64,000 bases of DNA from Oscillospiraceae bacterium (lineage in GTDB: Bacteria > Bacillota > Clostridia > Oscillospirales > Oscillospiraceae). The DNA lies in the NCBI GenBank assembly GCA_009781515.1, contig WQXY01000001.1, positions 1 through 64,000 on the forward strand. The letters are read 5' to 3'. Below are positions 1 through 48,478 of the stretch, in pieces; positions within the stretch are counted from its first letter, which is position 1, and the number at the start of each line of letters is the position of its first letter. The notes beneath the pieces were generated by a model. The model searched no databases, was not told where the DNA came from, and saw only the letters and a program-made list of their open reading frames with translations. The position numbers were made by a program, and so were the translations under genes.

Positions 1-2991
1 CGATTCCCATTCACCAACATAAACAGTTAATGGTGCTCGTTTTATTGTTACAAGTTCAATTGCATATATATTTGTGCCTTGCGTGAATGTAACCACAGCC
101 GTGCCAGGTGAAGACGCTCCCATTATCCACATTATTTTGTCTTGTGAATCCCAGTAAGTTATCGAACCTGCAGGAAGTCCTTGAACAACAGGAGTTGTTG
201 TTCCCCAATTTGTCAGCCCGAACGATTCCCATTCACCAGTATAAACAGTTAATGTGGAGTCTATTAAAACCCCTTGTTGGGTCACTATGATTGTGCGTGT
301 TTGAGAACCTGCTACCACTGTTATTGTCGCATTGCGGTTTGATGATGTAGTGTTCGCTTCTGCAAATAATCCAAATGTTGTGCCTGATTTTACAGCTGTC
401 AGCCATGAAACATCATTTGGAATGATTACATCCCATTCGCTATAATTTGTTGAAACATCAATATTCACTGAACTTACCGTAGATGCAAAGTCACAATTAC
501 CGTGACTTAGATTAAGATAACCACCCGTTGTTGCACCATCTTGTGTTATATTTATTGTTTGTATTATTGGAACAACTAAAATTCCGCTCACATAAATCAC
601 AATAACATTTACCTCTGTACTTCGGCTCGTTTCATTAAGGTTTGGAGTTGCTGTAATTATAAGCGATCCACTGGAACTTTTTTCATATGTAATCCATGAT
701 GCCAATGGTCCCATAATATTCCAATTTGCAAAAGTGGGGATTATAGGTACATCGAGAGTATCCCCTGTGTGCGAAAAACTCAAGTCTGTGTACCCTAATT
801 CTAATACCGGAGTATAGCCATTTTGTAACACATGAATTTTACGTTCTTGATTCCCTGCGGTAACTGTCACTGTTGCTTCACGGTTTGATGATGTTTCATT
901 GTTTTTATGTACATATAATTCCAATGTAGAACCGGATTTCACTACGGTTACCCACGGAACCGAGCTTATTGCATCCCAACTTGGTTGGTTTGTTTCAACT
1001 GTGTAAAAGTATACCCAACCTAAGGGTGATGTGGGAGTTGTAGACGACGTAATAATAGTAGACACGAATGCTTTTCCGTTTATTGATAGTAGTTGTTGTG
1101 TGGTACTTGCTTGTGTTACTTTTATTACTCGTGTTTGATCACCGGCACTAACTGTAACCTCGCCTATCCGAGAAGATGATGTTAAATTTGTTCTTGTATT
1201 AATTGATATTTGAGAGCCTATCCTTACTACTTCAAGCCAAGGTTCTGAACTGATAACTCTCCATGTAGCTTGGTTTGTCTCGATGGTAAAATTACTATCA
1301 GACTCATACCAAGCAGCTCTGGATACTTGTATTATTGAACCTTGATTCCACACATTACCATCTAAGGTGATTGTTGTCGGAGACGATGTAGCTTGCTCAA
1401 CGTTTATTGTTCTTTTCAAACTTCCTGCTGTTACGGTCACTACGGCAGTGCGTCCTGTGTCAGTAGTATTTTCTGCCGCATTTAACATCAACACAGAGCC
1501 CGAACTTGTTATTGTCAGCCAAGACTCCGGGCATGTAGCAGTCCAACTATTTAAAGAGGTTGTTATTGTAATCGTTGTAGAATTTGCTTCATAATCAAGT
1601 ACCCATTTATTTGTGTTTACCGTCAGCATTGCAGATGCTGCAGCTTGTTTCACAGGGATTATTCTTGTCATAGAGCCTGATATTATTTTTATTTCCGCCG
1701 TGCGAGCTGTTGTCGATAAGTTTTCTTCAACACTCAACGTCAAATTAGAACCTGATTTCACCACCGTCAACCATGGCTTTGAACTGATTGCGTTCCACGA
1801 TGTTTGATTTGTAGTAACTGTCATATTTATAGAACTTGCTTCGCTTTTTGGATCCCACGACAATTGGCTAACAGTCATTACCCCTACTGCCTTTGCTTGT
1901 GAAACAATAATAGTTCTCACTTGACTTCCTGCTTGTACTTGTACTTCTGCTGTGCGTTCTAATGAAGTGGTGTTAGGCTCTGCGTTTAATGTCAAAATCG
2001 ACCCTGATTTTGTCGCTGTAAGCCACTGCGTATTATTTTGTATTGTATAATTCCAGTATGCCGCACTTGTAGTGACAGTTATATTTTGTGTATCTCCAAT
2101 AGCTTTTGTATGCCACTCGGTTTGGCTGAGTGTCAAGGTATCTATTACGGGACCGGATAAATTCACAACAGCAAAGCCTGTTGCATCGGGGTAATCGGAA
2201 ACAAATATATTGACATTTGATGCATGTACTCTTACATAAAGTGTCGTTGCTGTTTCATTTGAAGCTACCGTCAACAATCCCTGTGTACTTATTGTTGTCC
2301 CAGGAGCGTTATTACCAATGACACTCCATGTAGTACTTATAGGACTCCAGTAACTGGTCATGATATGCACAAGCGATGTGAACTGTAAGGTTTCTCCGCG
2401 CATCACAGTTGTTGTGCCCGGCGAAACAGATACTGAAGTGAATCTGGGTTCTCCTTCAGGATATGTTAGTCCACTATCGGTAGTATCTCGCCACAGATTA
2501 TTTGTAATATCATAATATAACACTATACCATGTGGTAAGTCCTGAGAGGTAATATCCCCCGTTGGTCCGCTTCCGGTTACTCGTATGTTGTTTACCCGCA
2601 CCATTACAACATTACCAAACGTGCCATGACGATTTCTCATAGTCCCCACTGCTTCAATGCCAAGAACAACAAAGTCCGGCAGAGGTACAAAACGACGCGT
2701 AGCAATCACTAATGCACCCGGTTGAGTGAATGATATAACCATATCGAGTGCTTTTACTTTTACACCGTTTATGTGAAGATCGGAATTAATCACTTCAACA
2801 AGTTGCCCACCAGGGGCGATTGTACTCATTGTAGTAAACATTGGCGAAAAACTAAAGCTCTCAAATTCATCCGAAGGTTCTTCTGGTTCAGTATTTCCGG
2901 CAAGTGCTGTGACCATGAAACTATTCAAAGAAACCAGTAAACTCAAAACTAAGAAAGTTGATAATACTCTTTTTATTATATTCATATTCAT
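1..2991 (-). CDS. Secreted multi-domain BACON/Ig-like repeat surface protein, C-terminus beyond window edge
   Basis: Open minus-strand frame from ATG at 2991 to position 1 with no stop (about 997 codons; absent from the ORF track because it is unterminated). Signal peptide MNMNIIKRVLSTFLVLSLLVSLNSFMVTALA. At least 6-7 repeats of the form 'TTNQTSWNAISSKPWLTVVKSGSNLTLSVEENLSTTARTAEIKIISGSMTRIIPVKQ', typical of BACON domains. Confidence 0.85.
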   Translation of the reverse strand, partial: MNMNIIKRVLSTFLVLSLLVSLNSFMVTALAGNTEPEEPSDEFESFSFSPMFTTMSTIAPGGQLVEVINSDLHINGVKVKALDMVISFTQPGALVIATRRFVPLPDFVVLGIEAVGTMRNRHGTFGNVVMVRVNNIRVTGSGPTGDITSQDLPHGIVLYYDITNNLWRDTTDSGLTYPEGEPRFTSVSVSPGTTTVMRGETLQFTSLVHIMTSYWSPISTTWSVIGNNAPGTTISTQGLLTVASNETATTLYVRVHASNVNIFVSDYPDATGFAVVNLSGPVIDTLTLSQTEWHTKAIGDTQNITVTTSAAYWNYTIQNNTQWLTATKSGSILTLNAEPNTTSLERTAEVQVQAGSQVRTIIVSQAKAVGVMTVSQLSWDPKSEASSINMTVTTNQTSWNAISSKPWLTVVKSGSNLTLSVEENLSTTARTAEIKIISGSMTRIIPVKQAAASAMLTVNTNKWVLDYEANSTTITITTSLNSWTATCPESWLTITSSGSVLMLNAAENTTDTGRTAVVTVTAGSLKRTINVEQATSSPTTITLDGNVWNQGSIIQVSRAAWYESDSNFTIETNQATWRVISSEPWLEVVRIGSQISINTRTNLTSSSRIGEVTVSAGDQTRVIKVTQASTTQQLLSINGKAFVSTIITSSTTPTSPLGWVYFYTVETNQPSWDAISSVPWVTVVKSGSTLELYVHKNNETSSNREATVTVTAGNQERKIHVLQNGYTPVLELGYTDLSFSHTGDTLDVPIIPTFANWNIMGPLASWITYEKSSSGSLIITATPNLNETSRSTEVNVIVIYVSGILVVPIIQTINITQDGATTGGYLNLSHGNCDFASTVSSVNIDVSTNYSEWDVIIPNDVSWLTAVKSGTTFGLFAEANTTSSNRNATITVVAGSQTRTIIVTQQGVLIDSTLTVYTGEWESFGLTNWGTTTPVVQGLPAGSITYWDSQDKIMWIMGASSPGTAVVTFTQGTNIYAIELVTIKRAPLTVYVGEWES

Positions 2992-3000
2992 ACCATCCAA

Positions 3001-3540
3001 TCACAATTTTGCCAAAGGATCATCAATGTGCCAAGTATGAAATAATCCGTCAGAACCAGATAAAGGCGGGTCTTCAGGTCCTGCCAGCTTATACCCTGCT
3101 AATTTAACAGCTATACCATTTGCGTCGATAAATCTAAAACCAGCTTCAAACATGCGACGCTCAAACTCTACCCAAGAAATACGCCCTTCCCATGCATCTA
3201 TCCATTTAACTAATTCTACTTCATCCTCTTCGTCTTGCTCATCTTCGTGTGCTGTAACTTCGTAAGTATCGCCATCATTAGATATAAGTAGTTTTTTTAC
3301 GTCACGCAAACGTCCACCGTCATCGCCGGTCACAATACTCAAGGAAGCCAGCATTTTCACCATGTTGGATATGTGCTTCCCGCTAATTGGCGAAGTATCT
3401 CCCTTTGTAAAGTCTTGCTTTGCGACTTTATTATCGGGAGCATCGACTTTTTTTTCGTCGTTACTACCCTTTCCTTTCTCCGCTGATACAGTGCGAGGAG
3501 ATTGAGTATCTGCTATTTGTGACGATCCTGAAATTCGCAT
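3001..3540 (-). CDS. Hypothetical protein, acidic central region
   Basis: 179-aa ORF, Lys/Ser/Asp-rich N-terminus, 'HEDEQDEEDEVELVKW' stretch; no family recognised. Confidence 0.6.
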   Translation of the reverse strand: MRISGSSQIADTQSPRTVSAEKGKGSNDEKKVDAPDNKVAKQDFTKGDTSPISGKHISNMVKMLASLSIVTGDDGGRLRDVKKLLISNDGDTYEVTAHEDEQDEEDEVELVKWIDAWEGRISWVEFERRMFEAGFRFIDANGIAVKLAGYKLAGPEDPPLSGSDGLFHTWHIDDPLAKL

Positions 3541-3938
3541 AATAATAGTCCTTTCAATAAAACAAATCTATTTGTTAATTTCATAAATGTAGTAAAATAT
3601 CTTTGGGGATATAAAGTCGTTTATGAGATGATGTTTGTTTATGGTACATAAGTCTTTTATTGTAAACTTTCCTTCATTTCTCTTAGTAATCACCAACAAT
3701 GACGTAATTGATACTCTGTCTATTGATGAACCGATTTTAAGAACAAGCTACTTTGCCAAGTTTGTATAATATGTCACGGTTTCTTTTATTGATGAAGAAA
3801 TTTATTTGAAACATTTTCTAAATGCTCACGAGTCATTTCCTTTGATTTAAATTGATTAACTGAAAAATAACATATTTTTGATAATTTGATTAATATGTGT
3901 CTATAAATAGGTCTATCTAAGCGATATAGTTCGCATTC

Positions 3939-5915
3939 TTAATTACTTGTGTCAGGATCTACTGTCTTATCTTGCAATGATTTTAACAACTCTTCAATCA
4001 TATGCCATTCTTTTTTTGTTTCAACCACCCCTAGATCAACTCTTCTTCCATCTGGATTATATGTGTTTGCATATACTTTTATGTATCCATTTTCGTCTAC
4101 TGTGTTATCGGTGAAAACTATGTAGCTCTTTTCCGTTTCCTCTGAATCAAATGTAAAAAGAACGTCACATTCAATCTCTTTTCCACCTTCATCTATAATA
4201 GTAATTCTTCCATCTCGCCTTGTGCCATTAAGAGTTCTATCATCATTTCGAAGTCTGTCATCGTCAGATAAAATCCTTTCTTGTCTGCTTTTTACATTTA
4301 GTTCTATCCCACTTTCCTTCATTGTAGCAAACGGATATGTGATTGGTTTTTCGAACATTACAGGCTTGGGTAATTTTGTCCGAAGATTTATATCCTTCGC
4401 TTCTTTTTCTTTTCCGATTTGTTCCTGTCCCTCTATTTCAGCTATTTTCTTGTCTATCCTTCTTACTAAGTCATCTATATCCAATTTATGACCTTCTTGC
4501 ACATTAGCAGACTTATTCGATTCATTATCAGTAGTTTCTATAGCCTCAAACAGCTTATTGCGCTTTGCTTCTTTTACATAACTGGCTATATCGAATGTAT
4601 CAACTACCTCACCGGTCGCAGTCCGTTTTTCTGTTCGTTGAGATAAATATAGCTTAGGTTTCATCTCTTTATTGCATTCAATTTTGGTTATTTTCCCATC
4701 AAAATTCAATAATGATATATAATATTCATTTCTATCAGAACGCATGTATTTTATCTCTGATATTGCTTCAGTCCCTATCACTGTTTCCATTGTTTTAATA
4801 AATGATGGTTCTTTACACGAGAAAATAAACCAATTGTTCAGCAAACTTATAATTGTTTCTGCTCTATCCGCGCCGTAAATTTTAATTAATGCAGCATAAC
4901 TTTTTATTCCAACATGGAACTTGATTTGTTTTCTTAGCGAGTCTGTGAGCATCTGTTCAAATTCCGTAATAACCGGAAGCGGAGTGAAGTCCGAAATAAT
5001 AAAGTTGAACTTATTTCGATCTTCAGTTGACATTTTAGCAACCCGCTCATAGTATTCCCGAATAAAATACGAAGCAAGTAAGTTACCCGAAAGCTTTCCA
5101 GGTTGTATTTGTAAAAACAAAAGGGACTTATTTAGAATCATATCATCGAAATCAATAGGGATATTGCCTGACTTTTCAAATTTTTGATTTTGAATCGATA
5201 CATCCCTAGTTTTTTGTGTTAGAACACTATTAATGCCAGATGCTGTTTCTCTCGCGGAGACAAGCCAACTACTGGCATATTGGCTTATCAATGAATCCTT
5301 TGACTTTAATTTAAAATACTCTTTTAAATAAGTACTGGTTGCAAAGCTTTCTTGCCCATCTGATATCATGCGTGAGATGCTGTTTAGGTTCACTTGCTCA
5401 CAGTTTTCGGCATCCTCAAATAATCCTATGCACAACGCAATAAACAAACTTCGAGCAGATGAATCCCAAAAAGCGTCACCGCTTGTTAATGGTATAAAGT
5501 TTTCTGCCAAATCGGTCAGTGAATTGAGAGCTGCATATGCTCCTCTTTGTTTAAAAATCTCATAGCTGTATGCTAGAGGGTTGTAGTCAGCGCTTCTTTC
5601 AAGATCGAAGAAGTTCAATGAATGGACAAGGTACCCTTTTTCTTTTGCAGTTGTAGCAAATCTGTCTTCAAGTCTATAATCATTGTCAACAATCAAAGCG
5701 GACTCCCTATTATCTCCAATTATTGACATAATTAAACAGGCATACACCTCTTCATCAGCAAGGGATGTGCCATACAATAGGGAGTGTATCGGTCTTGGGT
5801 CATAAGCAAACTTATCGTCCTCAAATTTAACCGGAATACCGGAACCAGATGTAGACGTTTTCGTATTAAATTTGTAATATCCGAGGTTATCATTAGGCAG
5901 CGCGTTTCGTGACAT
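3939..5915 (-). CDS. VirD4/TraG-like (type IV coupling protein-like) protein with degenerate nucleotide-binding motifs
   Basis: 'ADYNPLAYSYEIFKQ', 'SGDAFWDSSARSLFIALC' and 'FIISDFTPLPVITEFEQMLTDSLRKQIKFHVGIKSYAAL' resemble VirD4/TraG core motifs (NPL; FW..A..L; DEfp.lg.i..f). The expected GxxxxGKS/T and DPKGE motifs are absent. Confidence 0.6.
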   Translation of the reverse strand: MSRNALPNDNLGYYKFNTKTSTSGSGIPVKFEDDKFAYDPRPIHSLLYGTSLADEEVYACLIMSIIGDNRESALIVDNDYRLEDRFATTAKEKGYLVHSLNFFDLERSADYNPLAYSYEIFKQRGAYAALNSLTDLAENFIPLTSGDAFWDSSARSLFIALCIGLFEDAENCEQVNLNSISRMISDGQESFATSTYLKEYFKLKSKDSLISQYASSWLVSARETASGINSVLTQKTRDVSIQNQKFEKSGNIPIDFDDMILNKSLLFLQIQPGKLSGNLLASYFIREYYERVAKMSTEDRNKFNFIISDFTPLPVITEFEQMLTDSLRKQIKFHVGIKSYAALIKIYGADRAETIISLLNNWFIFSCKEPSFIKTMETVIGTEAISEIKYMRSDRNEYYISLLNFDGKITKIECNKEMKPKLYLSQRTEKRTATGEVVDTFDIASYVKEAKRNKLFEAIETTDNESNKSANVQEGHKLDIDDLVRRIDKKIAEIEGQEQIGKEKEAKDINLRTKLPKPVMFEKPITYPFATMKESGIELNVKSRQERILSDDDRLRNDDRTLNGTRRDGRITIIDEGGKEIECDVLFTFDSEETEKSYIVFTDNTVDENGYIKVYANTYNPDGRRVDLGVVETKKEWHMIEELLKSLQDKTVDPDTSN

Positions 5916-5927
5916 ATATTTCCCCTC

Positions 5928-7796
5928 CTATTTGTGTTTATCAATAGCGCGGTCAATTTGCTCCCTTAACCGTTCAAGTTTTTCCCGCATCATAATTGAA
6001 GTATCAACGGCAGGTATTGAGCTCCGTTTAATAGTTATTAAGTCCCAGTTGTGTTCATTTTTTAAAGCTTCACTAATACTATGCTTCATTATGTTAAAAG
6101 AATTAACTTTTTGCTTGTTTGTAAAAACCTCATGACTGAGAAAATAGTTCATGGTAGCGACTATCTCTTCATACAGCATATTTATGTCTGTGTTATATAG
6201 TGTAAATAACTCCTCTGCTATGATCCCACGATGATACTTGTTAAAGTACTTTTTAATCACAGCCGAATCATCGACACAACGGTTGGTGAATGAAAAAAAA
6301 CGATCTCTTTTCGTTCTGAACGCTTTCCATACAACTTCGTTCTGCCATAATTGACCACCCTTAGTATGCATATTTCTAAAATCGTTCAATGCTAAAAAAA
6401 CATATAGCTGCCCAATAAAGTCAGGTTCTATCGGATAAAATTGGACCTTTGTGGTCGAACTAGCTACTGCTTCTATTTGACATAAAGCGCTATTCGTTTT
6501 TTCAAGAGATCCATGTGCTGTTACAAGCTTATTAATAAACTTCTCCTCATTCCGCCCATCGTCTGAGGAAACACAAGTACCGTTTTCTATCGTCGCCTTA
6601 ACAACATACTCTTTTATCTGATACGCCAGATTATCAGTATAACAAGCAACAGCTGAAACCGCCTCATTGTATTCACAAATTATTCTGTCGAGCGCACTAT
6701 ATAAGCAATCTTCTTCATTTATATCTATATTTTCAGACAAAAGAAATTCAATTAATATTATCACAAACAACGGTCGATACTCGTTGTGATTTTTCAATTG
6801 TTTATCTACAGATTTCTTTATGTTTTCAATTACTTTTTCATTATCAATATTGTATCTTACTCTCAACCATTGCTCAACTAAAATCTTCGCGCCTTCTGCA
6901 TCAAACTCTTTGAGTACTAGTGAATCCTCGTGTAAAAAATCCTTCAAGCTGCGATCGAACCTTTTTATATATTCACTGTTTATTGTTTCGCGCTCTATTA
7001 ATACTACGCGAATTTTTTTAGTTTTTAGTTTGTAGCACAGCATTTTTAAGAACCGAATAACCTCATTTGACACTTCACCATAATAATCGATAACTAAAAA
7101 AAGGTTCTTTTCATAAAAACAATCACTAAATGAGGGAAGTCCAGGATCGATTTTAATAAATTTCATTTCCCAGTCCAGCTTTTCATTACTCTTTACGAAG
7201 TTATGCAGAAGCTTACTTTTGCCGACCGCGGCTCGACCTGTTACGCACCACCACCTGAATTGTTCATTGTGATCGCAAAATTCCTCAAGCTTCTTGATTT
7301 CATTATCTCTACCAGTAAATACGTTTACATTCGCGAAGTAAAATTCGCTCTTTACTTTGAGAATTCCCTGTGAAAAAAGATTCTGACCATCTATGAATTT
7401 CGCGAAATCAGATCTGTTGTGCCATATTTGTGCTACTTCATTAGCTCTTTCGCGCACTTTATTACTTTCTATTTTTGTTAACACTTTGTATACTTCATTA
7501 GCACAGTCGCACAGTTTGCTATAATCCATCTCATTCATGTTCTTTTTTAGATCCTCGGCATACTGGCGTGTTAGGGTATCACTGTTGTTTGTAGCAAAGT
7601 ATGCCAAAACGACAAGCTTATCAACTAACTTTTCAACATCTTCTTTAGTGTCTGGAAATATAGTCTGATATTTTTTTAGAATATTTTTTATTTGTCTTTT
7701 GCGAAACGGAGCTGTAATTTTACTAGTAAGAATATATTTTTCAAATATTGTCAATGCGATAGTAATAGCTGTGCTGATTGTCAATTCAATCACCAT
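5928..7796 (-). CDS. STAND-like P-loop NTPase with N-terminal membrane segment
   Basis: 'FTGRDNEIKKLEEFCDHNEQFRWWCVTGRAAVGKSKLLHNF' (Walker A), 'NLFLVIDYYGE' (Walker B), 'IRVVLIERE'; hydrophobic N-terminus MVIELTISTAITIALTIF. Confidence 0.75.
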   Translation of the reverse strand: MVIELTISTAITIALTIFEKYILTSKITAPFRKRQIKNILKKYQTIFPDTKEDVEKLVDKLVVLAYFATNNSDTLTRQYAEDLKKNMNEMDYSKLCDCANEVYKVLTKIESNKVRERANEVAQIWHNRSDFAKFIDGQNLFSQGILKVKSEFYFANVNVFTGRDNEIKKLEEFCDHNEQFRWWCVTGRAAVGKSKLLHNFVKSNEKLDWEMKFIKIDPGLPSFSDCFYEKNLFLVIDYYGEVSNEVIRFLKMLCYKLKTKKIRVVLIERETINSEYIKRFDRSLKDFLHEDSLVLKEFDAEGAKILVEQWLRVRYNIDNEKVIENIKKSVDKQLKNHNEYRPLFVIILIEFLLSENIDINEEDCLYSALDRIICEYNEAVSAVACYTDNLAYQIKEYVVKATIENGTCVSSDDGRNEEKFINKLVTAHGSLEKTNSALCQIEAVASSTTKVQFYPIEPDFIGQLYVFLALNDFRNMHTKGGQLWQNEVVWKAFRTKRDRFFSFTNRCVDDSAVIKKYFNKYHRGIIAEELFTLYNTDINMLYEEIVATMNYFLSHEVFTNKQKVNSFNIMKHSISEALKNEHNWDLITIKRSSIPAVDTSIMMREKLERLREQIDRAIDKHK

Positions 7797-14713: not shown

Positions 14714-14938
14714 ATGTACATATATGGAGGTGATATTTTGCCTGATGAATTATTAACAGTTGCACAAGTGGCGGATTATCTTAAATTGTCTACAAAAACA
14801 GTGTATCGATTGATACAAAAAGGTCAATTATTTGCATCTAGGATTGGCAATAATTCTTTGCGCATAAAAATGTCTGATGTGGAAAATTATTTACATTCAC
14901 GCAGGTTGGGTTCAATCTCTTCTGATATGAAAGGTTAG
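14714..14938 (+). CDS. Excisionase/MerR-type helix-turn-helix DNA-binding protein
   Basis: 'LLTVAQVADYLKLSTKTVYRLIQKGQLFASRIGNNSLRIKMSDVENYLHSRR'. Confidence 0.85.
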   Translation: MYIYGGDILPDELLTVAQVADYLKLSTKTVYRLIQKGQLFASRIGNNSLRIKMSDVENYLHSRRLGSISSDMKG

Positions 14939-14940
14939 GG

Positions 14941-15852
14941 ATGCATATGCTAGGCAGATTTGGAACGCTTGAAAATGTACCCAGAAGCGAATTAGGCGGT
15001 AAAGCATATTCCTTAAACAGATTGATTGAAAGCCATATCGATGTTCCCGTTGGGATTGTTATTTTTTCTTCTTGTTTTATTGAGAGCTTGAAAACCAATA
15101 ATGTCTACAATGAGGTAACAGCTTGCTGTCAGGATATTAACTCCGTGAATATATTACAATCGAGCAGAAGGTTAACTTCATTAGTTATGCAGTGCGAAAT
15201 AGATGATAGTATTATTAATGAAATTAAGAAAAACGCAGAAGGCTTAGAGCAATTTGTTTCTGTTCGGTCGTCAGCGGCAAGCGAAGATGGCGAATATCAC
15301 ACTTTTGCCGGATTGCATGATTCGTTTTTGAATGTTGACCGCAATACTGAAACTCTGACAGACTTTATTAAAAAATGTTGGGCATCCCTCTTCAATGAAA
15401 GAGCGTTAATTTATAGGACAAAAAAAAATATTCCGATATTTGAAGGGATGGCAGTGGTCATTCAGGATATGGTGCAAGCAAAAAGCTCTGGTGTATTATA
15501 TACACGGCATCCCATCGAGAAAAAATACTTGTTAATCGAATCCGCATTTGGAATCGGAGATTCTGTGGTTGATGGTGTTATTAAACCTGATTCTATCTTG
15601 GTTGATAGAAATACATTAGAAATTGTATCGAAAGAAGTCGGAACAAAAAAGACAAAAACAGAATTCCGAAATGGCGTTCATACAACCAGTGAAAATGATC
15701 AAGGCGAAATGTTTTCTATTGGTGATGGTGCTATAAATGAGCTCACATCCATAGGATTAAACATTGAAAAAATCTTTGGAACAACGCAAGACATTGAGTG
15801 GGCGTTTGACGATAAACTTTGGGTTATCCAGTCAAGAAATGTGGATTTTTAA
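14941..15852 (+). CDS. PEP/pyruvate-binding (PPDK N-terminal) ATP-grasp protein
   Basis: 'LGGKAYSLNRLIE', 'FVSVRSSAASEDGEYHTFAGLHDSFLNV', 'VVIQDMVQAKSSGVLYTRHP', 'DIEWAFDDKLWVIQSRNV'. Confidence 0.9.
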   Translation: MHMLGRFGTLENVPRSELGGKAYSLNRLIESHIDVPVGIVIFSSCFIESLKTNNVYNEVTACCQDINSVNILQSSRRLTSLVMQCEIDDSIINEIKKNAEGLEQFVSVRSSAASEDGEYHTFAGLHDSFLNVDRNTETLTDFIKKCWASLFNERALIYRTKKNIPIFEGMAVVIQDMVQAKSSGVLYTRHPIEKKYLLIESAFGIGDSVVDGVIKPDSILVDRNTLEIVSKEVGTKKTKTEFRNGVHTTSENDQGEMFSIGDGAINELTSIGLNIEKIFGTTQDIEWAFDDKLWVIQSRNVDF

Positions 15853-15863
15853 TGGGGGTATAT

Positions 15864-17321
15864 ATGTCTAGCAACTTAACAAGAGAATACTTTGAAACGA
15901 ACTATTTATGGAAAAGGTTCGTCTGTAGAACAAGCCCCCCATTGTGGAGGAACTTGGAGCATTTGGGGTTTGTACGGGAAACCCTCTTAAAAAAGAACGG
16001 CTTTGATATGTTTATTTCTTGGAAGAGCGAATTGCATTTGCTTTTTGCCAATCCTGAAGAACATGGCAGAGTTTTGAAGATGCTCAGAGAAAAAGCTGTT
16101 GAAGACCTCAATCTCATAAACAACAATGCCAAGCGATGCTATGAATTATGCGATGACTACATCAAGTTTTGTACTCGCTACGATTCGTATGAAGGATTTA
16201 ACAATCTTGAATTGCGAGATATATGGACGACATATGTTGATAAAAATAATGGGTTAGTCGCTTACCGTCCGTTGATTCTAATGCTCGATAAAACCAATGC
16301 CACTTTCTTGGAAGAAGAATTAGAAAAAGCGGGTAATCTTGAATTCCATTTTGAATGGATTACTACTACAAGAGAATTGCCGTTCGTAGCCCAGCGAAAC
16401 GATGCGCTTGCTATAGGGAACGAAATTAAAGCGTTAGGGCTTGACCTTTCTTCGGAGTTGCCTGATTCCATTGAGAAAAAAATAGACCAACATATGGCTA
16501 AGTACGGATGGCTTTTCACCCATCATTTTTTGGGCGACCCTATGACAAGGGATGATATAATTGCTTCCATCAAAAAAATGCTAGATGATTTCGACCCCAT
16601 CAAAATGGAAGAAAAAAACAAGGCTCGAATAGCTTCTCTTGATAAAATCAAGGCTATCAACGCTAATATCGCAAGGTACATCGAAACCGCGCAAGATTAT
16701 GCGTATTTAAGAACATACCGCATTGATATTGCGACGGAAGGCGATTTCTATTTCCGCGCGTTTTTCAATGAAGTAGCAAAAAGAATGGGTATCACCTACG
16801 ATGATTTTCTCAACCTCAATACCGATGAAATTTCAAAGTGGTTAGAAGGCTCTTCCGACATTCAAAAACTACAGGAAATAATAGAAAAACGCAAAGAATA
16901 CTTTGTGACATACTTGGTTGATGACAATAAAATTTATTGGTTCCAAGGAAAAGAAAACATTATCGAAGAAGATGTCAAGGAACGTCCAGATAATCTTATG
17001 TTAACAGGGAAAGTCGCTCAGAGAGGGAGGGTTACCGGCACTGTTAAAGTTGTTCAGTTCAAGGAACAAATAGACAAAGTGAACGACGGAGATATTTTGG
17101 TGAGTTCTATGACAACCCCGGAAATGATGGTTGCGTTGATGAAATGTGACGGCATCGTAACTGACGAGGGTGGTGTTGCATGTCACGCAGCTCAAATTAG
17201 CCGCGAATTTTGTATCCCCTGCGTAATTGGCACACTCGAAGCTACCGCACTTTTGAAAGACGGAGATACCGTAGAAATAATTGCCGAAGGAATGGATGGC
17301 ACGGTTAAGCTTTTGCCATAA
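15864..17321 (+). CDS. PEP-utilizing enzyme mobile (swivelling His) domain protein; second half of split PEP synthase/rifampin-phosphotransferase-like enzyme
   Basis: 'GDILVSSMTTPEMMVALMKCDGIVTDEGGVACHAAQISREFCIPCVIGT' is the phosphohistidine domain. Start chosen at internal ATG 15864 (MSSNLTREYF) just after the previous stop. Confidence 0.88.
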   Translation: MSSNLTREYFETNYLWKRFVCRTSPPLWRNLEHLGFVRETLLKKNGFDMFISWKSELHLLFANPEEHGRVLKMLREKAVEDLNLINNNAKRCYELCDDYIKFCTRYDSYEGFNNLELRDIWTTYVDKNNGLVAYRPLILMLDKTNATFLEEELEKAGNLEFHFEWITTTRELPFVAQRNDALAIGNEIKALGLDLSSELPDSIEKKIDQHMAKYGWLFTHHFLGDPMTRDDIIASIKKMLDDFDPIKMEEKNKARIASLDKIKAINANIARYIETAQDYAYLRTYRIDIATEGDFYFRAFFNEVAKRMGITYDDFLNLNTDEISKWLEGSSDIQKLQEIIEKRKEYFVTYLVDDNKIYWFQGKENIIEEDVKERPDNLMLTGKVAQRGRVTGTVKVVQFKEQIDKVNDGDILVSSMTTPEMMVALMKCDGIVTDEGGVACHAAQISREFCIPCVIGTLEATALLKDGDTVEIIAEGMDGTVKLLP

Positions 17322-18107: not shown

Positions 18108-18171
18108 ATAGCTACTAACCCGTATATATAGGAGTATCTTTTATTTACGGAAGAATAATGGAGGTATAAAA

Positions 18172-19464
18172 ATGGGCAAAATAGTCCTGTCAGAAATAAT
18201 GGGAATTGAAAAAAGAGCGCACGGGGATGAAATTATAAATACTGATTTTATATCAAGAACTTTGTGTTTAGCAAAAGATAAGTTGGGTGCGGAAGATTAT
18301 TTCATTTATTTTTGTGATAGAAAAAAAGCCAAAAACGGTACAATCCAATTTGATATATTTAATTCGGATTGGGAATCTGTGGAAGACGAAAGCAATCAAG
18401 AAATATGCGAAATCATTAAAAAGTGTTACTTAGACAATACATATTCAAATGACACTTTGAAGGATTATGCTATTTGTATTCCTTCGCAAATAGGATGCCT
18501 CGGAGTGGTTCTATTTTCTAATATAAATTTTCAAAACGATGGCACATATGTCCAAGCAGGCGTTGAGCAATTTGTCACAAATTCCATGTCTGCGTTAGGT
18601 CACGCAATGCTCTCGAAACTTTGTATTTTTGACGCCGATGATGGTGTTGAAGACGAAGAAGATGACCTTGATTTCGATGATTTTTTAGATGAATTTGAAA
18701 AGAAGCGTTCACTGATTGGGAAGTACATTCCGTTTGGTAACAGAAAATGCGTGACTATGTTTGTAGATATACGCAATTTTACGCAGTTACAAGCGGAGTG
18801 GGCAGCGAGTCCCGATCAAAAAGAACTTCAATTTAACTTGAAATTTTCTAATCTAATTGAAGAATCTTCGAAAAATCATTATGGCATTGTTAATGGCTTT
18901 TGGGGTGGTAGCGCATTGATTGTTCTTAACGTGCTTTTGCATGAAAAAATTGATGTTGCCTGTCGGCGCGCCCTTTGTGCTGCCAATGAAATAAAAAAAT
19001 CATTCCATACTTTATTGGGTACATTAGGCATTACAGAGGAATTTATCAAACAGCACCATATAAAACTTGGAATCGGCGGGAATGCAGGAAATGTATTTTT
19101 CTTTGGTTTTGGATATAATGACAGTTTTCATAATTATAACTGTTTGGGGGCGTTGGTTAGCGAAGCAAAGAAGCTTGAAAGGTTTTCCGGAAGAAGTATT
19201 TTGATATACGACGCAGAAGAACGGGAGTATAAAACACCTCATGATAAACCCGATCATATTATTATATCAGAAGGCTTTTATGACATAATAAAAAATGAAC
19301 CGCATGGAATGGATATTCAAGATATAGAGGATATGGAGTTCCCCACAAAATTTCATGAACAAGTTTGCAAAAGCAAGATTTATGGATTTAGCAAAATTCA
19401 ACCGAATCCGTGCGGAAATAAATTAAAATGCAAAAAATGCGATTCTGATTGCGAGGTGCAATAA
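18172..19464 (+). CDS. Class III nucleotidyl cyclase-like (CHD) protein with degenerate catalytic motifs and Cys-rich C-terminus
   Basis: 'KCVTMFVDIRNFTQLQAEW', 'GIVNGFWGGSALIVLN', 'IKLGIGGNAGNVFFFGFGYNDSFHNYNCLGALVSEAKKLE' align with cyclase motifs; C-terminal 'CGNKLKCKKCDSDC'. Confidence 0.75.
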   Translation: MGKIVLSEIMGIEKRAHGDEIINTDFISRTLCLAKDKLGAEDYFIYFCDRKKAKNGTIQFDIFNSDWESVEDESNQEICEIIKKCYLDNTYSNDTLKDYAICIPSQIGCLGVVLFSNINFQNDGTYVQAGVEQFVTNSMSALGHAMLSKLCIFDADDGVEDEEDDLDFDDFLDEFEKKRSLIGKYIPFGNRKCVTMFVDIRNFTQLQAEWAASPDQKELQFNLKFSNLIEESSKNHYGIVNGFWGGSALIVLNVLLHEKIDVACRRALCAANEIKKSFHTLLGTLGITEEFIKQHHIKLGIGGNAGNVFFFGFGYNDSFHNYNCLGALVSEAKKLERFSGRSILIYDAEEREYKTPHDKPDHIIISEGFYDIIKNEPHGMDIQDIEDMEFPTKFHEQVCKSKIYGFSKIQPNPCGNKLKCKKCDSDCEVQ

Positions 19465-19465
19465 C

Positions 19466-20146
19466 ATGAGCCGTATATTAATCTTTGAAGATCAACCAAT
19501 AGAACGAAAAGATATTGAAAAGATTGTTCGGGAGGTTTTATCCAACTGCAAAAGTGATATAAAAATAGAAAAACCTCTTGAAAGCATTAGAGACATCACA
19601 AAAGTCGCCATCACGCCGGAAAATCCTATACATCTAATAATAACGGATATCTTAAATTCTAAAAAAGATTTGGTCGGCTACATGGATTTGCTGGCTCAAG
19701 CTCGTGACAGCCAAAACGCTGATGAGAAAGTTCAATTTATTGAGCAAGCAAATGAAATTCTCATAAATGCAGCTAAATATAGTTTAAAACATATAGCTTC
19801 AGAGTGGGGTCGGATATCTTGTCCTCTGATTATCATTACTAAAATTAATCGTTCAAATTTAATGAAGATTCTTGAAGGGCTCAATTCTGATCTCAATATA
19901 TTAAGGATGTTTGATAATAAAATTGATGTAATGATAAGAAAAATTAAGCGTCGTTCTCGCACGATGTACAAGAGCAAGAACTTGACAATATTTCTAAAGA
20001 AAGAGTATTACGAATGTGCCTCTGACGAAGTGTTCGCGTATGAAGAAGCTCATAGTTCTTTTAACAAGTGGTTTTCAAAAAAATTGATGAATATGTTAAG
20101 AATTTCAAATGCAAGCGAGGTATCTATTGACGATGAAAAGTCTTGA
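19466..20146 (+). CDS. Response-regulator-receiver-like protein
   Basis: 'MSRILIFEDQPIERKDIEKIV' and 'IHLIITDILNSKKD' resemble receiver acidic pocket and phospho-Asp strand. Confidence 0.55.
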   Translation: MSRILIFEDQPIERKDIEKIVREVLSNCKSDIKIEKPLESIRDITKVAITPENPIHLIITDILNSKKDLVGYMDLLAQARDSQNADEKVQFIEQANEILINAAKYSLKHIASEWGRISCPLIIITKINRSNLMKILEGLNSDLNILRMFDNKIDVMIRKIKRRSRTMYKSKNLTIFLKKEYYECASDEVFAYEEAHSSFNKWFSKKLMNMLRISNASEVSIDDEKS

Positions 20147-21356
20147 ATGCACGGAAAAGATGTCAGATGCAATCAAAGAAAACATAATAGATGTGTTTAC
20201 AAATCATTCCGCAGCGATGAATGAGTTGTTTTTAATGCATTCAACTTTGAACCCTGATACTTTCGTTACTCTAAAAAGCGAAAGCGAATCAAGGTTTTCT
20301 AAAAACAATGTAGATATTGTCATACTTACTGCTACTCCAATAGAGACTAATATGATTTTAAATGCCATGAGGCAACAAAACACAAACAAAATTGAAAAAA
20401 TACGAGCAGAAAATGGACGAGCCTATCATTTAAGTCGTTTGGGTGAATATAATATTGCGCATATACAATCGCCAATGGGAAGCGGAGCTAAAGAAACAGC
20501 GTCTCTCGCAATCAAAAAATGGAATCCTAAAATAATAATTTCGTATGGGATAGCCTTGGGTGAAACACCTAATAAGCAAAAATTGGGAGATGTAATTTTT
20601 CCAACGCTTATTATTTCATATCGGGATGGCAAGTATTCAGATGGAGAAATATTCGTTAGTAAAAATGCTTGGGTTCCCAATACAGATGCATATATCCGTA
20701 ATTTTATTGACGAATATGGAACTCATTGCAAACCAAAGCATGGATTTAATTTGCATTCAGGGACTATTATTGAATCTCCTTGGGTTTTAAGCGATCCTGA
20801 TCTTAAAGAAAAATTCTTTTCCTCAATTAAGAGTTTTCGGGCAATTGGCGGAGATATGGAGGCTCATGGCATATACGAGGCTGTTCAAGATTCTGAACGT
20901 GAGTTTGGTAAAAAATATTGTTTTATGCTAAAAGGTGTTTGCGATTGGGCCGAAGAAAAAAACGAAAATGTAACTGGCGACGAAGACGAACAAGATAAAA
21001 TTCAATTATTCGCCGCAAACAATGCTCTTGTTTTTTTAATGGATTTGCTTAACGATCGATACTTTTTGTCTCTTGATATAAATTCATCTGAAAACACAGC
21101 TGCAATTACACGAATCAAAGACCAGTTTCATCAGCATCCTAAATTAATAAAAAAAATAAATGAGTCTCGTGACATAATTGTGTCTATATATAGTTATTAT
21201 AAGGACACATATAAAAAGGATCAGTCTACTTTGAACTTTCTTAATGATTTTAAAGAATATGGGTACTGTAACAATGAATACAATCTTACGGAAAAAGGCT
21301 TTTTGTTTATATTACAGTTAACTGATTTTAACCCTAACCATTACTATAAAACATGA
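20133..21356 (+). CDS. Phosphorylase-superfamily (MTA/SAH nucleosidase-type) protein with C-terminal extension
   Basis: 'VDIVILTATPIETNMILNAMRQ', 'YNIAHIQSPMGSGAKETASLAIKKWNPKIIISYGIALG', 'AIGGDMEAHGIYEAV', 'FMLKGVCDWAEEKN'. Start at internal ATG 20133 (MKSLEC). Confidence 0.8.
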   Translation: MKSLECTEKMSDAIKENIIDVFTNHSAAMNELFLMHSTLNPDTFVTLKSESESRFSKNNVDIVILTATPIETNMILNAMRQQNTNKIEKIRAENGRAYHLSRLGEYNIAHIQSPMGSGAKETASLAIKKWNPKIIISYGIALGETPNKQKLGDVIFPTLIISYRDGKYSDGEIFVSKNAWVPNTDAYIRNFIDEYGTHCKPKHGFNLHSGTIIESPWVLSDPDLKEKFFSSIKSFRAIGGDMEAHGIYEAVQDSEREFGKKYCFMLKGVCDWAEEKNENVTGDEDEQDKIQLFAANNALVFLMDLLNDRYFLSLDINSSENTAAITRIKDQFHQHPKLIKKINESRDIIVSIYSYYKDTYKKDQSTLNFLNDFKEYGYCNNEYNLTEKGFLFILQLTDFNPNHYYKT

Positions 21357-21838
21357 AACAGTACAAGCAAGTTACCTTATCTTGTAGTTACCTTATTTAT
21401 AAATGCATTGCATCCCTCAATATTTTTGCACCCCTTGAACACTCGAAATCATTCTACAATGTGCAAGGGTGTACATTTTATCACCGTATGGTAAATTAAC
21501 CATTAAAAAGGAATAGGAATCAAACTTTCCCAAATTGAAAAGTCTGTAAGAACGGCAATGTTAATTCGTTTGCGGGCTTTATTAATGCAACCTGATTAAA
21601 GGTATATATAGATGTTTTAAATATCATGTATATACTAGCGTAAAAAGGTTTATTATATAGAGCAAATAAAAAGTATTGCTTCAACAACTCCCTTTTTTAG
21701 TTTTTAAAATACAAACCACACACTTACATTTATCCATCCCTCTTGTAGGGATTTTTTAGTTTCAAACGTTATTATAGTAGACGGTTTTGACCACTTGCAG
21801 AAAATTATGATATAATTTGAGTATCTTTCTGTAGGTGG

Positions 21839-28842: not shown

Positions 28843-29469
28843 ATGAAAAAAACAATTAAAAATATTGTTCAAGAAAGAGATGTAAGATATTTAGTGCATT
28901 TTACAAGAGCCGAAAACTTAGAAAGTATTTTTCTTCACGGAATAATTTCGGTTGCAGAAATTGATGCAATGAGACTAAAAGTTAATAAAAATGACGATTT
29001 AAGACTTGACTATTGTACAGAAGCGGTTTGCTTATCCATAGGATTTCCAAACTATAAAATGTTTTATGGTACAAGACGTGAAAACCCGGATAGTGATTGG
29101 GTAGTGCTTATTATAGAACCAGAAGTATTATATGACTTAGATTGTGCCTTTTGCAAAACAAATGCAGCTTCGTTAAGTGTTTCATCCGTTCCTTTGAAAA
29201 AGAGGAAAACAGTAGAAGCTTTTGAAGAAATGTTTTATGAACCTTTATCGAATAGTCGCAAAAAACGCAATTTGCCTGATGATTTCCCAACAGATCCACA
29301 AGCAGAAGTTTTAGTGTTAGAAGCAGTACCTCCTGAGTATATAGTTGCTGTTTGTTTCGAAGATAAAGAAGCTGAGCAAGAGAATTTACGAATACTCCCT
29401 CACGATATTGAAAGCACACATAAGAGTAATCTTTTTAGTTGGAGAATAGATTGCGAATATTGGAGATAA
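28843..29469 (+). CDS. DarT-like (DUF4433) ssDNA ADP-ribosyltransferase toxin
   Basis: 'VRYLVHFTRAENLESIFLHGIISVAEID', 'AVCLSIGFPNYKMFYGTRRENPDSDWVVLIIEPEVLY', 'FPTDPQAEVLVLEAVPPEYIVAVCFED'. Confidence 0.8.
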   Translation: MKKTIKNIVQERDVRYLVHFTRAENLESIFLHGIISVAEIDAMRLKVNKNDDLRLDYCTEAVCLSIGFPNYKMFYGTRRENPDSDWVVLIIEPEVLYDLDCAFCKTNAASLSVSSVPLKKRKTVEAFEEMFYEPLSNSRKKRNLPDDFPTDPQAEVLVLEAVPPEYIVAVCFEDKEAEQENLRILPHDIESTHKSNLFSWRIDCEYWR

Positions 29470-29473
29470 TCTT

Positions 29474-30172
29474 ATGGCAAAACGACCTGTTTTTATTTGT
29501 ATAGATGAAAAACCTTATTTTGATGTAAAAAATGTTAATTTTGACTATTACTCTGGTTTTTCTATATCCCAAAAACAAAAATCGATTAAAAGCCTTCATC
29601 AATCAACTAATAAATTATATGAAAACCTTAATCTTTTAGAAATATCAAGCAAATCAGAAAGTATACTCGGTCAAAATCTAAGTGCATTTAGCCTTTCGTT
29701 TAAAGGGAAGAGCGGAAAACGTTATAGTGTAGAAACGACTTTCCAAGCAAGCAAAAGATTTGAGTATGGAGGTCCATACAGAGATTTACTTGATAAACAC
29801 CCAAGAGAGGCAAAACGAGACGAGCGGTTAAAGAATAGTGGGAAGCTTATTGAATTCGTTTATATTGATGATAAAAATGTTTTCCCATTAGTACCAAAAA
29901 CCTTGTTTTATAATTGGCTTTATATTAACACACTTGCTTTAAATCAATCGTATTTTAATGAGTTGTTAAAGTATAATGCTTTCACTGATATTGAGTTCAA
30001 TCCTGAAAAATCAATTAATTGTCAAGCTATCGCTGCTGCCATTTTTGTTTCTCTATATAAAAACAATCTATTTTGTCCTCCATTCAGTAAAGAAGAGTTT
30101 CTTTCAACAGTTTACGGGTCAAATGAGATTAACTGTTATGCATTTGAATATGAACAGCTTAAGTTCCTATAA
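29474..30172 (+). CDS. DarT-partner protein of unrecognised family (putative antitoxin)
   Basis: Starts 4 nt after the DarT-like stop; 232 aa; no macrodomain motif seen. Confidence 0.6.
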   Translation: MAKRPVFICIDEKPYFDVKNVNFDYYSGFSISQKQKSIKSLHQSTNKLYENLNLLEISSKSESILGQNLSAFSLSFKGKSGKRYSVETTFQASKRFEYGGPYRDLLDKHPREAKRDERLKNSGKLIEFVYIDDKNVFPLVPKTLFYNWLYINTLALNQSYFNELLKYNAFTDIEFNPEKSINCQAIAAAIFVSLYKNNLFCPPFSKEEFLSTVYGSNEINCYAFEYEQLKFL

Positions 30173-31348: not shown

Positions 31349-33281
31349 TCAAATTACTGGTGCAGGTATGATTGTATCATAAAACTTTGATGTTTTTCTT
31401 TGGGCAAGAGCTGTAGGGTCTACTCCCTCTTTAAAATAGTATAGTTGGCTTACTTGATATACTTCACCCAAACAAACCTCATGTGGCTCAACAAACTCAC
31501 ATGCAAATCCATCTCTATCAGTTAATTCATTTGGTTTTTCTTTTGGTATATGGTCTGTTATTGCACGAACTTTTATCTTATTATTGTGGAATTTTAAGCA
31601 AAACCCTATATCTGCCGGTAAAAACACAATTTCAGAACCAATATCCTTTTTACTTTTAAATGCTTCATCAAACATTTTTGTAACGTCTATCCTATAACCG
31701 TCAAATTCTTCGCCAAACTCAGAAATAATACAAACCTCTGGCCTTAGAATTTCTGTGATTTTTGTTAATCCTATTCTTCCTAAATGCTCTTTATAATAAC
31801 ACTCCTTATTCCTTTTTATATTATTAATGGAGTAGTATTTTTCACTATCCTTACATCCTCCTAAATTTGCAAGAAGTGTAATATGCTTTTTCTCATTAAT
31901 ATGACGTGCTTTTAGCTTCTTATACGCGTTCTTAATACTTATATCTTCGAAACCCGTATCTCCAGTATAGACTAACGCAAAGTCCTTTAGTTTAAAGCAA
32001 AAGCCAACTGAGCAACAATCAGAAATTACATCATTATGCTGTGCTTTTATAACGTGTACCTCTAGTTTTGTTCCAGAAATTTTGAATTTATTATTTTCTT
32101 CATCGTCAACGCAAACAACTTTATAATTACTGCTTTTTTCTAAGTTGAAAAAGTTTGCATATTTTTTATGTGTTCCAGCTGTCATATAAAATTTAATGCA
32201 TTTTCTCCTCTTTTCGAACTCCTCTTTCACTTTCTTTTCTATTGCTTCTTTTCTATCTGATGATAATCCCTCTCGAAATGTTGTTTCTCGGTCTAGAATA
32301 GCATCATAAATGCTCCTTGGTTTTTCTTCAGAATCTGAACCATATAGATCATCATTATATTTGTAATGAAGTGTCAATAATGATTCCAAATCTGCAGTAT
32401 GATCGTTGTGAGCATGTGTAAAAAATACAGCATCAATATCTTTAACTGTATAACCAGCTCTGACAAAATTCTTAATAAAGTCAAAACCGGGATCAACTAC
32501 TATGCCTTTATTTGCATATTTAATGAAATATCCCCCGCCCTTACTGACTCCACTACTAGCAATTGGTGTATATGAATTCCATTTTCGTAAAACTAACAAC
32601 TCAAGACCATCAACGTGTATTACCTTGTTTCTATGGCTATGGAATTTATTCTGTATGACTTTATTGGCTTCAGTTTTCTTAAAGAGCTCTTTTGTTTTTT
32701 CTATTACTGTCATTGAAATATCTTTTTCTTCATGTGGCATATTCTTGATTCTTAACAGTTCTTTAACATTTTGAATTCTGTGTTTTATACCTGTTTTTCG
32801 GTTTTTATCTTTGTATAGTGCATATACTTTTTTATAACAATCGATAGCCTCTTCATATTCTTCGTTGTTGAAATAAATCAACCCTTTATTATAGTGCGGA
32901 GCAGTTAGCTTAGAACTAATATCCAGAGCCTTGTCATAGTATTTTATTGCTTCATCGTAATTTCTTAGATCATAATACACTCGCTCCTTGTTAACGTGTG
33001 CCATTCCATTGAACTCATCAAAAACCATAGCCTTTTCATAATCTTCTAGAGCCTTTTCATATTGCCCCATGCGACGAAATACATTCCCGCGAAAATTATA
33101 TGCTTTTGATTTTTCTTTTGCACAATCATAACTAATTTCAATCTCTTCATTACAGTGCTTAAGAGCTGTATCGAAATTCCCGTCAATTTTCCCCCTCGCC
33201 AAAAAAAATAACGGCTTGATTATGGTGCCATTCTGCTGTACGGGTCACTTTATTATCTTTTGCAAGTTTTTCTGAAGACAT
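31349..33281 (-). CDS. TPR-repeat protein with C-terminal metallo-beta-lactamase fold; apparent frameshift in 5' A8 tract
   Basis: TPRs 'AYNFRGNVFRRMGQYEKALEDYEKAMVFDEFNGMAHVNKERVYYDLRNYDEAIKYYDKAL'; MBL motif 'DAVFFTHAHNDHTADLESLL'. ORF track starts at 33202 (TTG), but ATG 33281 with RBS AGGGGAGG reads MSSEKLAKDNKVTRTAEWHHNQAVIFF and joins the TPR frame after a 1-nt shift at 33201-33208. Confidence 0.8.
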
Positions 33282-41198: not shown

Positions 41199-42479
41199 AT
41201 GTATTGTAAAAGTTGCGGAAAACAAATAGCGTCCGATGATTTATTTTGCACATCATGCGGCAATCCTACTTCACATATAAAAAAAGGAAACATAAAAAGC
41301 AAAAAAAATTCCAAGCGAAAAAAGATGTTTTTTATATCAGGTATTGCCCTTGCGTTAGTAATAATTGTTGCAATTATCACGATACCATTATTAAGCACTC
41401 CCAACCATACTCCTATACCGCCTTTTGTACAAGCACAACCTACGGTCAGCCCTACGCCGATACAAACGCTACCCCCCGCGATTGACCCTACGCCGATACA
41501 AACGCTACCCCCGATTGACCCTACGCCAACACAAACGCTATTCATATCAGAGGGTGAATATACCGCAAGTTTTATAGCACAAATGGAGCCAATTAGCGGA
41601 TGGGAGTTGGGAGAGATAGCAACTGCATTATGTTCGCTTGGTCGAAGTGCTGTAATAAAAATAGACTTTGGTCAAACTGTTTCATTTGGTGATGGCAACT
41701 TTATCGCTATTAATACTAATCTGCCGAATAATTATGATGGTGCACCTTTTTCTGATCCTAATATTGCAGAAGTTATATCATTTAAGCTTGATGGTAAAAG
41801 AATAAATGTAGACAACATTTATATTAATGCTGAAGGTATGAATGCGTTTGATGGAAATGGTTATGGACTTAGATTAACACTTGCCAACAAGTGGAGTTCT
41901 ATAAGTAAGCAACCTGTAGATCCTTTAGAACTTGGAGAATTTGACACATTAGAGATAGAATTTATAATCCATAAGATTGCTCCTCCGCCACCAACATTAC
42001 CACCCCAAGATCCTGCAACACAAGGTTATGCGTATATTGGTGGAACTTTTGCATTTCTCAACAGAAATCACCCAAGCGACGCTGATGATGACGTAAAAAG
42101 GTGCGATTGGTGGGCATTTGAAGATCAAAAAGTTAATTTTGAATTTGGTGAACAGTTTACTGTTTCAATTGACATGGGAAGGGAGAAAATTAGGCATGAC
42201 CGTGCATACTGGAACGGTGAGGACTATATCATTGCTATTGATACAGACGTGGAATCAAATCCGGGTTTATTCAATGCTTATATTCACAGCATTACAAAAG
42301 ACGGAGTTAATGTACCCTTTAATCCCAACAATGTAACTGTTGGTAGAGAGCGCGGGAATCTCAGAATTTCAATCACCAACAGCTGGGCAGAATTTGCTGG
42401 TGACCCTGTACCCATTGCAGGTCCATTCTCAATAGGCGAGTTTTCAAAGCTTGAAATAACACTTACGATTTATAATTAA
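41199..42479 (+). CDS. Zinc-ribbon membrane protein with Pro/Thr-repeat stalk and extracellular domains
   Basis: 'MYCKSCGKQIASDDLFCTSCGNP', TM 'MFFISGIALALVIIVAIITIPLL', repeated 'DPTPIQTLPP'. Confidence 0.8.
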   Translation: MYCKSCGKQIASDDLFCTSCGNPTSHIKKGNIKSKKNSKRKKMFFISGIALALVIIVAIITIPLLSTPNHTPIPPFVQAQPTVSPTPIQTLPPAIDPTPIQTLPPIDPTPTQTLFISEGEYTASFIAQMEPISGWELGEIATALCSLGRSAVIKIDFGQTVSFGDGNFIAINTNLPNNYDGAPFSDPNIAEVISFKLDGKRINVDNIYINAEGMNAFDGNGYGLRLTLANKWSSISKQPVDPLELGEFDTLEIEFIIHKIAPPPPTLPPQDPATQGYAYIGGTFAFLNRNHPSDADDDVKRCDWWAFEDQKVNFEFGEQFTVSIDMGREKIRHDRAYWNGEDYIIAIDTDVESNPGLFNAYIHSITKDGVNVPFNPNNVTVGRERGNLRISITNSWAEFAGDPVPIAGPFSIGEFSKLEITLTIYN

Positions 42480-42567
42480 CCTCACCCTCACCGCAACATA
42501 ATAATTGAACAAATGTAAAGGGGACAATTATATTAGTATTAATGATCGTAGCATAGGAGGAAAGCCC

Positions 42568-43416
42568 GTGGCATTCTCATTTGACTGTTTTGTCATTACG
42601 CATACCGGCAATCATCGGAAAAGCAATGAGGATAATTTCTTAGTCGGTGAGATGCTTATGCCGGAGGAGCAAGCGGCTATGTCTGGAGCAACGAGCAGAC
42701 TTATCAGCAAAAGATTTACCGCAAGTGGTTCGGTAAATAATATATTTGCTGTCAGTGACGGTATGGGTGGACATGATTTCGGAGAAGTAGCGAGTTACGT
42801 GATTGTAAATGCTTTAAGCGAATTTGTCTCGCAATATAAAACAAAACCGTGCCGCAAGCGAAATGATAAATTTATGTATATTCAGGCATTTCAAGAAATG
42901 GTCAAACGAACTAACAAAGCGATTCTTGACTATGCAGCGGATAACAACGCGAGCGAAAATATGGGAGCCACACTAAGTGGATTGATTGCGTTTCCTGATG
43001 AGGTTGCCCCAATAAATATAGGGGACAGTTCTACATTCCATTTCGAGAATGACAAACTTACTAAACTGACAATAGACGATAACGAAAAATCCATTTTTGA
43101 AGGAGTTTATCCCTTTGCGTTAAAGAAAAATGGTCAACGCCTAACAAAGTATTTCGGATTGCCGGAATCATGTGGAATCTTAACCGCAACCATTTCAGCA
43201 CCGATTCCTTTAAGGGCAGGTCAAGTTTTCATCATAGCATCTGACGGGCTTACTGATTATCTGACCACCGATGATATTTCTGATATTCTAACGGAAAATT
43301 CAGACAGCATTGAGCAAGCTGTAAGCGCACTGATTGAATCCGCGCTCGATGGGGATAACGGTGGGCGCGACAACATAACAGTTGTCGCACTGAAAGCGAT
43401 AAAAACATCCGATTAA
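42568..43416 (+). CDS. PP2C-family Ser/Thr protein phosphatase
   Basis: 'THTGNHRKSNEDNFLV', 'NIFAVSDGMGGHDFGEVAS', 'IIASDGLTDYL', 'GGRDNITVVAL'; GTG start at 42568 after 'aggagg'. Confidence 0.9.
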   Translation: MAFSFDCFVITHTGNHRKSNEDNFLVGEMLMPEEQAAMSGATSRLISKRFTASGSVNNIFAVSDGMGGHDFGEVASYVIVNALSEFVSQYKTKPCRKRNDKFMYIQAFQEMVKRTNKAILDYAADNNASENMGATLSGLIAFPDEVAPINIGDSSTFHFENDKLTKLTIDDNEKSIFEGVYPFALKKNGQRLTKYFGLPESCGILTATISAPIPLRAGQVFIIASDGLTDYLTTDDISDILTENSDSIEQAVSALIESALDGDNGGRDNITVVALKAIKTSD

Positions 43417-43428
43417 AGGAGGAATATT

Positions 43429-48464: not shown

Positions 48465-48478
48465 GGAGGGATTATCAC

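Follow-up and report, generated by a model that had tools for sequence, protein, structure and literature searches.

The locus considered here raises the question of what a cyclase-like protein, a receiver-like protein and a nucleosidase may be doing together in a single compact operon, and which of the known systems, if any, this trio resembles most closely. It is situated in a 64,000-nucleotide stretch of DNA from an Oscillospiraceae bacterium, referred to below as the window.

Operon borders and the cyclase domain of gene A

The three genes are co-directional on the plus strand: gene A (18172-19464), an intact frame of 430 amino acids present in a single copy in the genome, gene B (19466-20146; 226 amino acids) and gene C (20133-21356; 407 amino acids). 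Their coordinates reproduce the tight packing described in the first-pass annotation, with a gap of 1 nt between A and B and an overlap of 14 nt between B and C, the start of the latter being taken as the ATG at 20133, with an in-frame ATG upstream at 20109 also possible. A ribosome-binding-like GGAGGT, read from the sequence, precedes gene A (18161-18166, plus strand), and a transporter-like gene (Vut_1, uptake) ends 64 nt upstream of it. On the other side, a hairpin resembling a terminator, with a T run behind it (21736-21752, plus strand), the likely end of the transcription unit, and a strong sigma-70-like promoter of the next gene, which encodes a sigma factor (21787-21816, plus strand; 11 of 12), suggest where the operon has its downstream border. 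It should be noted that, as a class, promoter-like and terminator-like sites were no commoner in the DNA of the window than in shuffles.

Concerning gene A, a hidden Markov model of canonical plasmid cyclases—built without any cyclase found by similarity to A—matched the protein with an E-value of 2.6e-7 and 28 bits, whereas 2000 shuffles of A reached at most 5.4 bits, so that the cyclase identity is not a matter of chance. A canonical cyclase from a genome of the same family aligns with residues 188-348 of A (E 4.5e-4), two proteins from class-level genomes match the same domain (E 4e-5 and 6.6e-4), and five of the six weak plasmid matches are annotated cyclases aligning over this stretch. 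Pfam gave zero matches for A at E<=10, which places the domain below standard annotation, and NCBIfam and PADLOC gave none that was meaningful. Judged from these alignments, residues ~190-348 make up a real, albeit degenerate, class III cyclase domain (188-348 when mapped to 18733-19215, plus strand).

The motifs quoted in the first-pass annotation are all present, i.e. VDIRNF from residue 198, GFWGGSA from residue 242, LGALVSEAKKLE from residue 325 and the Cys-rich tail. In the alignment with 12 canonical cyclases, the six catalytic or substrate positions are occupied in A by Asp, Gly, Gly, Ala, Ser and Lys, compared with Asp, Lys (one Arg), Asp, mostly Asp, Asn and Arg (one Lys) in the canonical set. 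The first metal-binding Asp (D199) is kept, the other five of the six positions being replaced: the base-reading Lys by Gly, the second metal Asp by Gly, the base-reading Asp by Ala, the transition-state Asn by Ser and the Arg by Lys. Both metal Asp residues and the Asn are retained in 12 of the 12 canonical cyclases; A has just the first Asp of these three. In a Pfam scan of the source genome (90% complete), nothing passed the cut-off as a canonical class III cyclase, and therefore pairing of A with a chromosomal partner would give no full active site, nor would a homodimer. The protein looks catalytically dead and is best called a pseudo-cyclase, as had been proposed before on the basis of the motifs.

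The cyclase domain is flanked by two further parts. The N-terminal domain (residues 1-165; 18172-18666, plus strand) appeared GAF-like by eye; profile comparison did no better with it than with random control reading frames and the GAF assignment was dropped. The Cys-rich tail CGNKLKCKKCDSDC (residues 414-427; 19411-19452, plus strand) belongs to a segment with Cys at positions 399, 414, 420, 423 and 427, and represents a possible zinc ribbon. Single-sequence AlphaFold models of A and B had mean pLDDT values of 33 and 43, respectively, with no confident fold.

These features bear directly on the comparison with Pycsar made in the first-pass annotation. In a Pycsar-like operon, A would be an unusual but active cyclase, whose cyclic nucleotide would be sensed by B, which in turn would activate C. 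The likeness consists in a class III cyclase-fold protein—here with its first metal Asp—standing beside a putative toxic effector, in the Cys-rich tail, the PycC of clade D needing a C-terminal zinc ribbon with residues C221, C223, C260 and H263 (PMC11224242), and in the proposal that receivers serve conflict systems as nucleotide-responsive switches (PMC8195603). PycC, however, keep both metal Asp residues (PMC11224242), as do all the canonical cyclases aligned, whereas in A the second of them, the base-reading Lys and Asp and the transition-state Asn and Arg are replaced; the tail is parallel to that of clade D in position only, since the Cys residues of AnPycC are spaced in another way; Pfam revealed no cyclic-nucleotide-binding domain in either B or C (E<=10); and the effector is a nucleosidase instead of PycTIR or PycTM. 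The Pycsar comparison was accordingly abandoned, and such a mode of action is considered improbable.

The nucleosidase C and the receiver-like protein B

The phosphorylase-superfamily motifs previously noticed in C turned out to be solid, the protein matching the family PF01048 in Pfam at 4.4e-8. It consists of a short N-terminus, a PNP domain at about residues 58-310 and a C-terminal segment of ~90 residues. Its best defence model is PADLOC PDC-M60C (6.7e-17), the match covering the PNP half alone (model positions 131-399), with the receiver half of the model unmatched; the MTAN model scores far weaker (7.8e-7). Residues E71, M242-E243 and D271 align with Glu12, Met173-Glu174 and Asp197, the catalytic residues of the MTAN from E. 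coli; M242, E243 and D271 are invariant across five defence PNPs and E71 is so in a three-protein set. By sequence, C is thus a phosphorylase-superfamily nucleosidase with its catalytic residues intact.

With regard to its relatives, a scan of 84,980 species for conserved PNP motifs kept 80 loci. Those examined show the architectures of conflict systems and include a PNP-EAD11 protein (L022), WD40/Roc-PNP proteins with or without TIR (L025, L023 and L027) and a protein from a viral contig (L020) with a P-loop, STAND-like by eye, behind the PNP. One further locus encodes a reverse transcriptase-PNP fusion that is DRT8-like (L030, 4027-6954). In the PNP tree, C is positioned outside the single clade that unites the Detocs PNPs (support 100), but its branch is very long (2.59 changes per column) and its exact placement therefore unsure. 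Both the models and the relatives closest to C are those of defence PNPs (Detocs DtcC and the STAND/EAD fusions), and C is accordingly assigned, as far as sequence comparison can tell, to the conflict-effector class.

The receiver reading of B proved weaker than originally claimed. Using hhalign, residues 1-62 align with the Detocs receivers in such a way that E8 and D9, the acid pair, and D61, the acceptor, are in register (P 0.003), the score exceeding those of 300 control reading frames except for copies of B itself and a single bona fide receiver. With HMMER, on the other hand, the Detocs receiver profiles gave E-values of 1.6-1.9, which are not significant, and neither a Pfam receiver nor PADLOC PDC-M60B was matched. 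The Ser...Trp...Leu motif found C-terminally in the Detocs receivers has a counterpart in B, recognized by eye, in HSSFNKWFSKKLMNML. B may thus be described as receiver-like, its receiver identity being marginal; it contains a long insert.

Comparison with Detocs and a possible mode of action

In the nine plasmid loci that were read, taken from plasmids other than those of Agrobacterium, a large sensor gene is followed by a receiver of ~150-160 residues and then by a receiver-PNP protein of ~410 residues, all closely packed. The E. coli locus matches PADLOC PDC-M60A, PDC-M60B and PDC-M60C gene by gene, and PDC-M60 is here equated with Detocs on account of its architecture. Among these operons, the sensor gene is split on an Arcobacter plasmid (L106, 1212-6212) and interrupted by an IS on a Klebsiella aerogenes plasmid (L107, 1-6224).

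By sequence and gene order, the closest architecture to that of the present operon is Detocs and not Pycsar: the two share the succession of sensor (putative in the case of A), small receiver (receiver-like in the case of B) and PNP nucleosidase, the overlapping genes, the PNP catalytic residues and the mobile setting. They also differ in several respects. The Detocs sensor DtcA is a kinase, whereas A is a pseudo-cyclase without one; B is longer than DtcB and carries the large insert; and DtcC is a receiver-PNP protein, whereas C has no N-terminal receiver, possesses a C-terminal segment of its own and falls outside the Detocs PNP clade. Neither a profile of seven DtcA nor the PADLOC model PDC-M60A matched A, and no histidine-kinase sensor was seen there. 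The operon resembles Detocs in outline without being a member, its putative sensor being different. A diverged Detocs proper, with B and C as phospho-receiver and effector under an unlinked histidine kinase and with A as an accessory, would agree with the DtcA-DtcB-DtcC order and packing, with the receiver register of the acid pair and acceptor Asp in B, and with the DtcC-like model being the best one for C; given the absence of a kinase from A, where the DtcA profile was silent, the receiver absent from C, the lack of a PDC-M60B match in B and the position of C in the tree, it is regarded as unlikely, although less so than the Pycsar-like scheme.

Two other systems deserve comparison. A PNP effector is shared with those CBASS that use Cap17; the present operon differs in having no CD-NTase, none being found by Pfam among the three genes, and in that C carries neither a SAVED nor a SLOG sensor. 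According to published surveys, PNPs, receivers without a kinase and inactive cNMP cyclases all occur as conflict-system parts (PMC7159879, PMC8195603), and inactive cNMP cyclases have been reported in VMAP/vWA ternary conflict systems, with a PNP and a receiver among the alternative parts (PMC7159879). The latter systems share with the present operon a dead cyclase placed in a context of conflict, but their vWA, MoxR and VMAP proteins have no equivalents in the operon studied here.

The coupling of a cyclase to a PNP also occurs within single polypeptides, namely in the proteins from Polyangium (L027; 1556 residues; 2119-6789) and Acidovorax (L023; 1595 residues; 1324-6111), both with the arrangement TIR-WD40-Roc-degenerate cyclase-PNP. 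The segment directly before the PNP matches PF00211 with E-values of 0.0013 (Polyangium) and 0.019 (Acidovorax), both under the Pfam cut-off; the GD motif is kept in the former and reads GSS in the latter, and the first Asp motif is absent from both. They are sister sequences and therefore count as one evolutionary event. Like the A-C pair, they couple a degenerate class III cyclase domain to the same broad class of PNP effector; they differ in being one large polypeptide, in the residues lost and in having no receiver. Seen in this way, the fusions lend independent support to cyclase-PNP coupling. A similarity between L047 and the Polyangium protein, considered as a shared cyclase, was rejected, as it is located in the linker outside the cyclase.

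Taking all this together, an even chance is given to a defence-type operon that would work in the manner of Detocs but have another front end, A acting as the sensor and B gating an ATP-class nucleosidase, C. The earlier proposal is thereby retained in part: its combination of a pseudo-cyclase with a nucleosidase effector is favoured by the replaced positions in A, by the conflict-type PNP with its catalytic residues and by the fusions found elsewhere, whereas its Pycsar part has been given up. In the mechanism that we infer, A, a dead cyclase fold, would bind a ligand or a partner, for which the old nucleotide pocket, the Cys tail and the domain at its N-terminus are candidate sites, and would change its state on infection; B would pass this signal to C or block it, either as a binding switch, the operon having no histidine kinase, or after phosphorylation by an unlinked kinase; and C, once switched on, would cleave a purine nucleotide at its N-glycosidic bond. 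The substrate would most likely be ATP, the nucleotide cleaved by the PNP of Detocs (PMC11249213), and its depletion would arrest the cell and thereby the phage as well. A more specific version, in which the operon would be a phosphorelay-free relative of Detocs and the dead cyclase fold would itself detect infection, e.g. by binding a nucleotide with an infection-dependent level, and signal through the receiver-like switch to the ATP nucleosidase, is put forward more tentatively. If correct, the effector with which Detocs and CBASS cleave ATP would here be run by a dead cyclase rather than by a kinase or an oligonucleotide cyclase, and the operon, being compact and made up of just three genes, would be well suited to the question of what pseudo-cyclases sense. 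The fused pairing in Polyangium and Acidovorax suggests that the association is not a one-off and merits a family-wide survey.

Distribution and genomic setting

The A-B-C association has been seen once, and neither A nor B has a detected orthologue in the sets searched: for A, plasmids, phages, genome contigs, IMG/VR and the genomes of the order (295), family (150) and class (255); for B, plasmids, IMG/VR and 391 class genomes. The weak matches of A in the order, family and class genomes cover the cyclase domain only, the one that was read (L009) being canonical; two weak matches of B among the 391 class genomes proved to be unrelated genes. No orthologue of C was found in 398 phylum genomes, among which PDC-M60C matched the source genome only, and no homologue of A or B was present near the 80 PNP loci. 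In a congener with an orthologous downstream sigma gene (58% identity), the operon is absent and other genes stand upstream.

The surroundings are consistent with a variable, partly mobile region. GC content around the operon is mostly 30-41%, whereas the right end of the window has 42-48%; a TrwB/TraD-like type IV coupling protein, which ends in DUF1292 and adjoins a STAND-like ATPase (3939-7796, minus strand), is a sign of a conjugative element; and a DarT-type ssDNA ADP-ribosyltransferase (PF14487, 3e-21) is followed by a DarT1-associated NADAR antitoxin (PF22397, 5e-81) at 28843-30172. Such regions are usual for defence genes without being proof of defence, and the setting counts as circumstantial.

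Two further explanations have to be weighed against this distribution. Enzymes of PF01048 are mostly salvage enzymes, and the uptake transporter gene upstream of A would suit a regulatory or salvage operon outside defence, in which a nucleotide-responsive regulator controls a nucleoside hydrolase; the preference of C for the conflict-effector model over MTAN, the patchy presence and the variable region speak against it, making it somewhat less probable than a diverged Detocs. The degenerate, singleton nature of A could also point to a decaying cassette, i.e. a non-functional A in a remnant operon; against this stand the three frames, open throughout 3.2 kb although the DNA is AT-rich, their preserved close packing and the intact catalytic residues of C, and it is deemed the least probable of all, very little weight being attached to it.

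Several other genes of the window may be mentioned as observations in their own right. At 14714-17321, beside an HTH gene, a rifampin phosphotransferase-like enzyme is apparently split into two genes, one for a PPDK_N ATP-binding protein and the other for a PEP-utilising-like protein. The stretch 31349-33202 (minus strand) encodes a metallo-beta-lactamase fold domain combined with TPR repeats, and 41199-52023 holds, by eye, a cluster in which zinc-ribbon proteins occur together with a PP2C-like phosphatase, an FHA-like protein and a large protein resembling Ser/Thr kinases.
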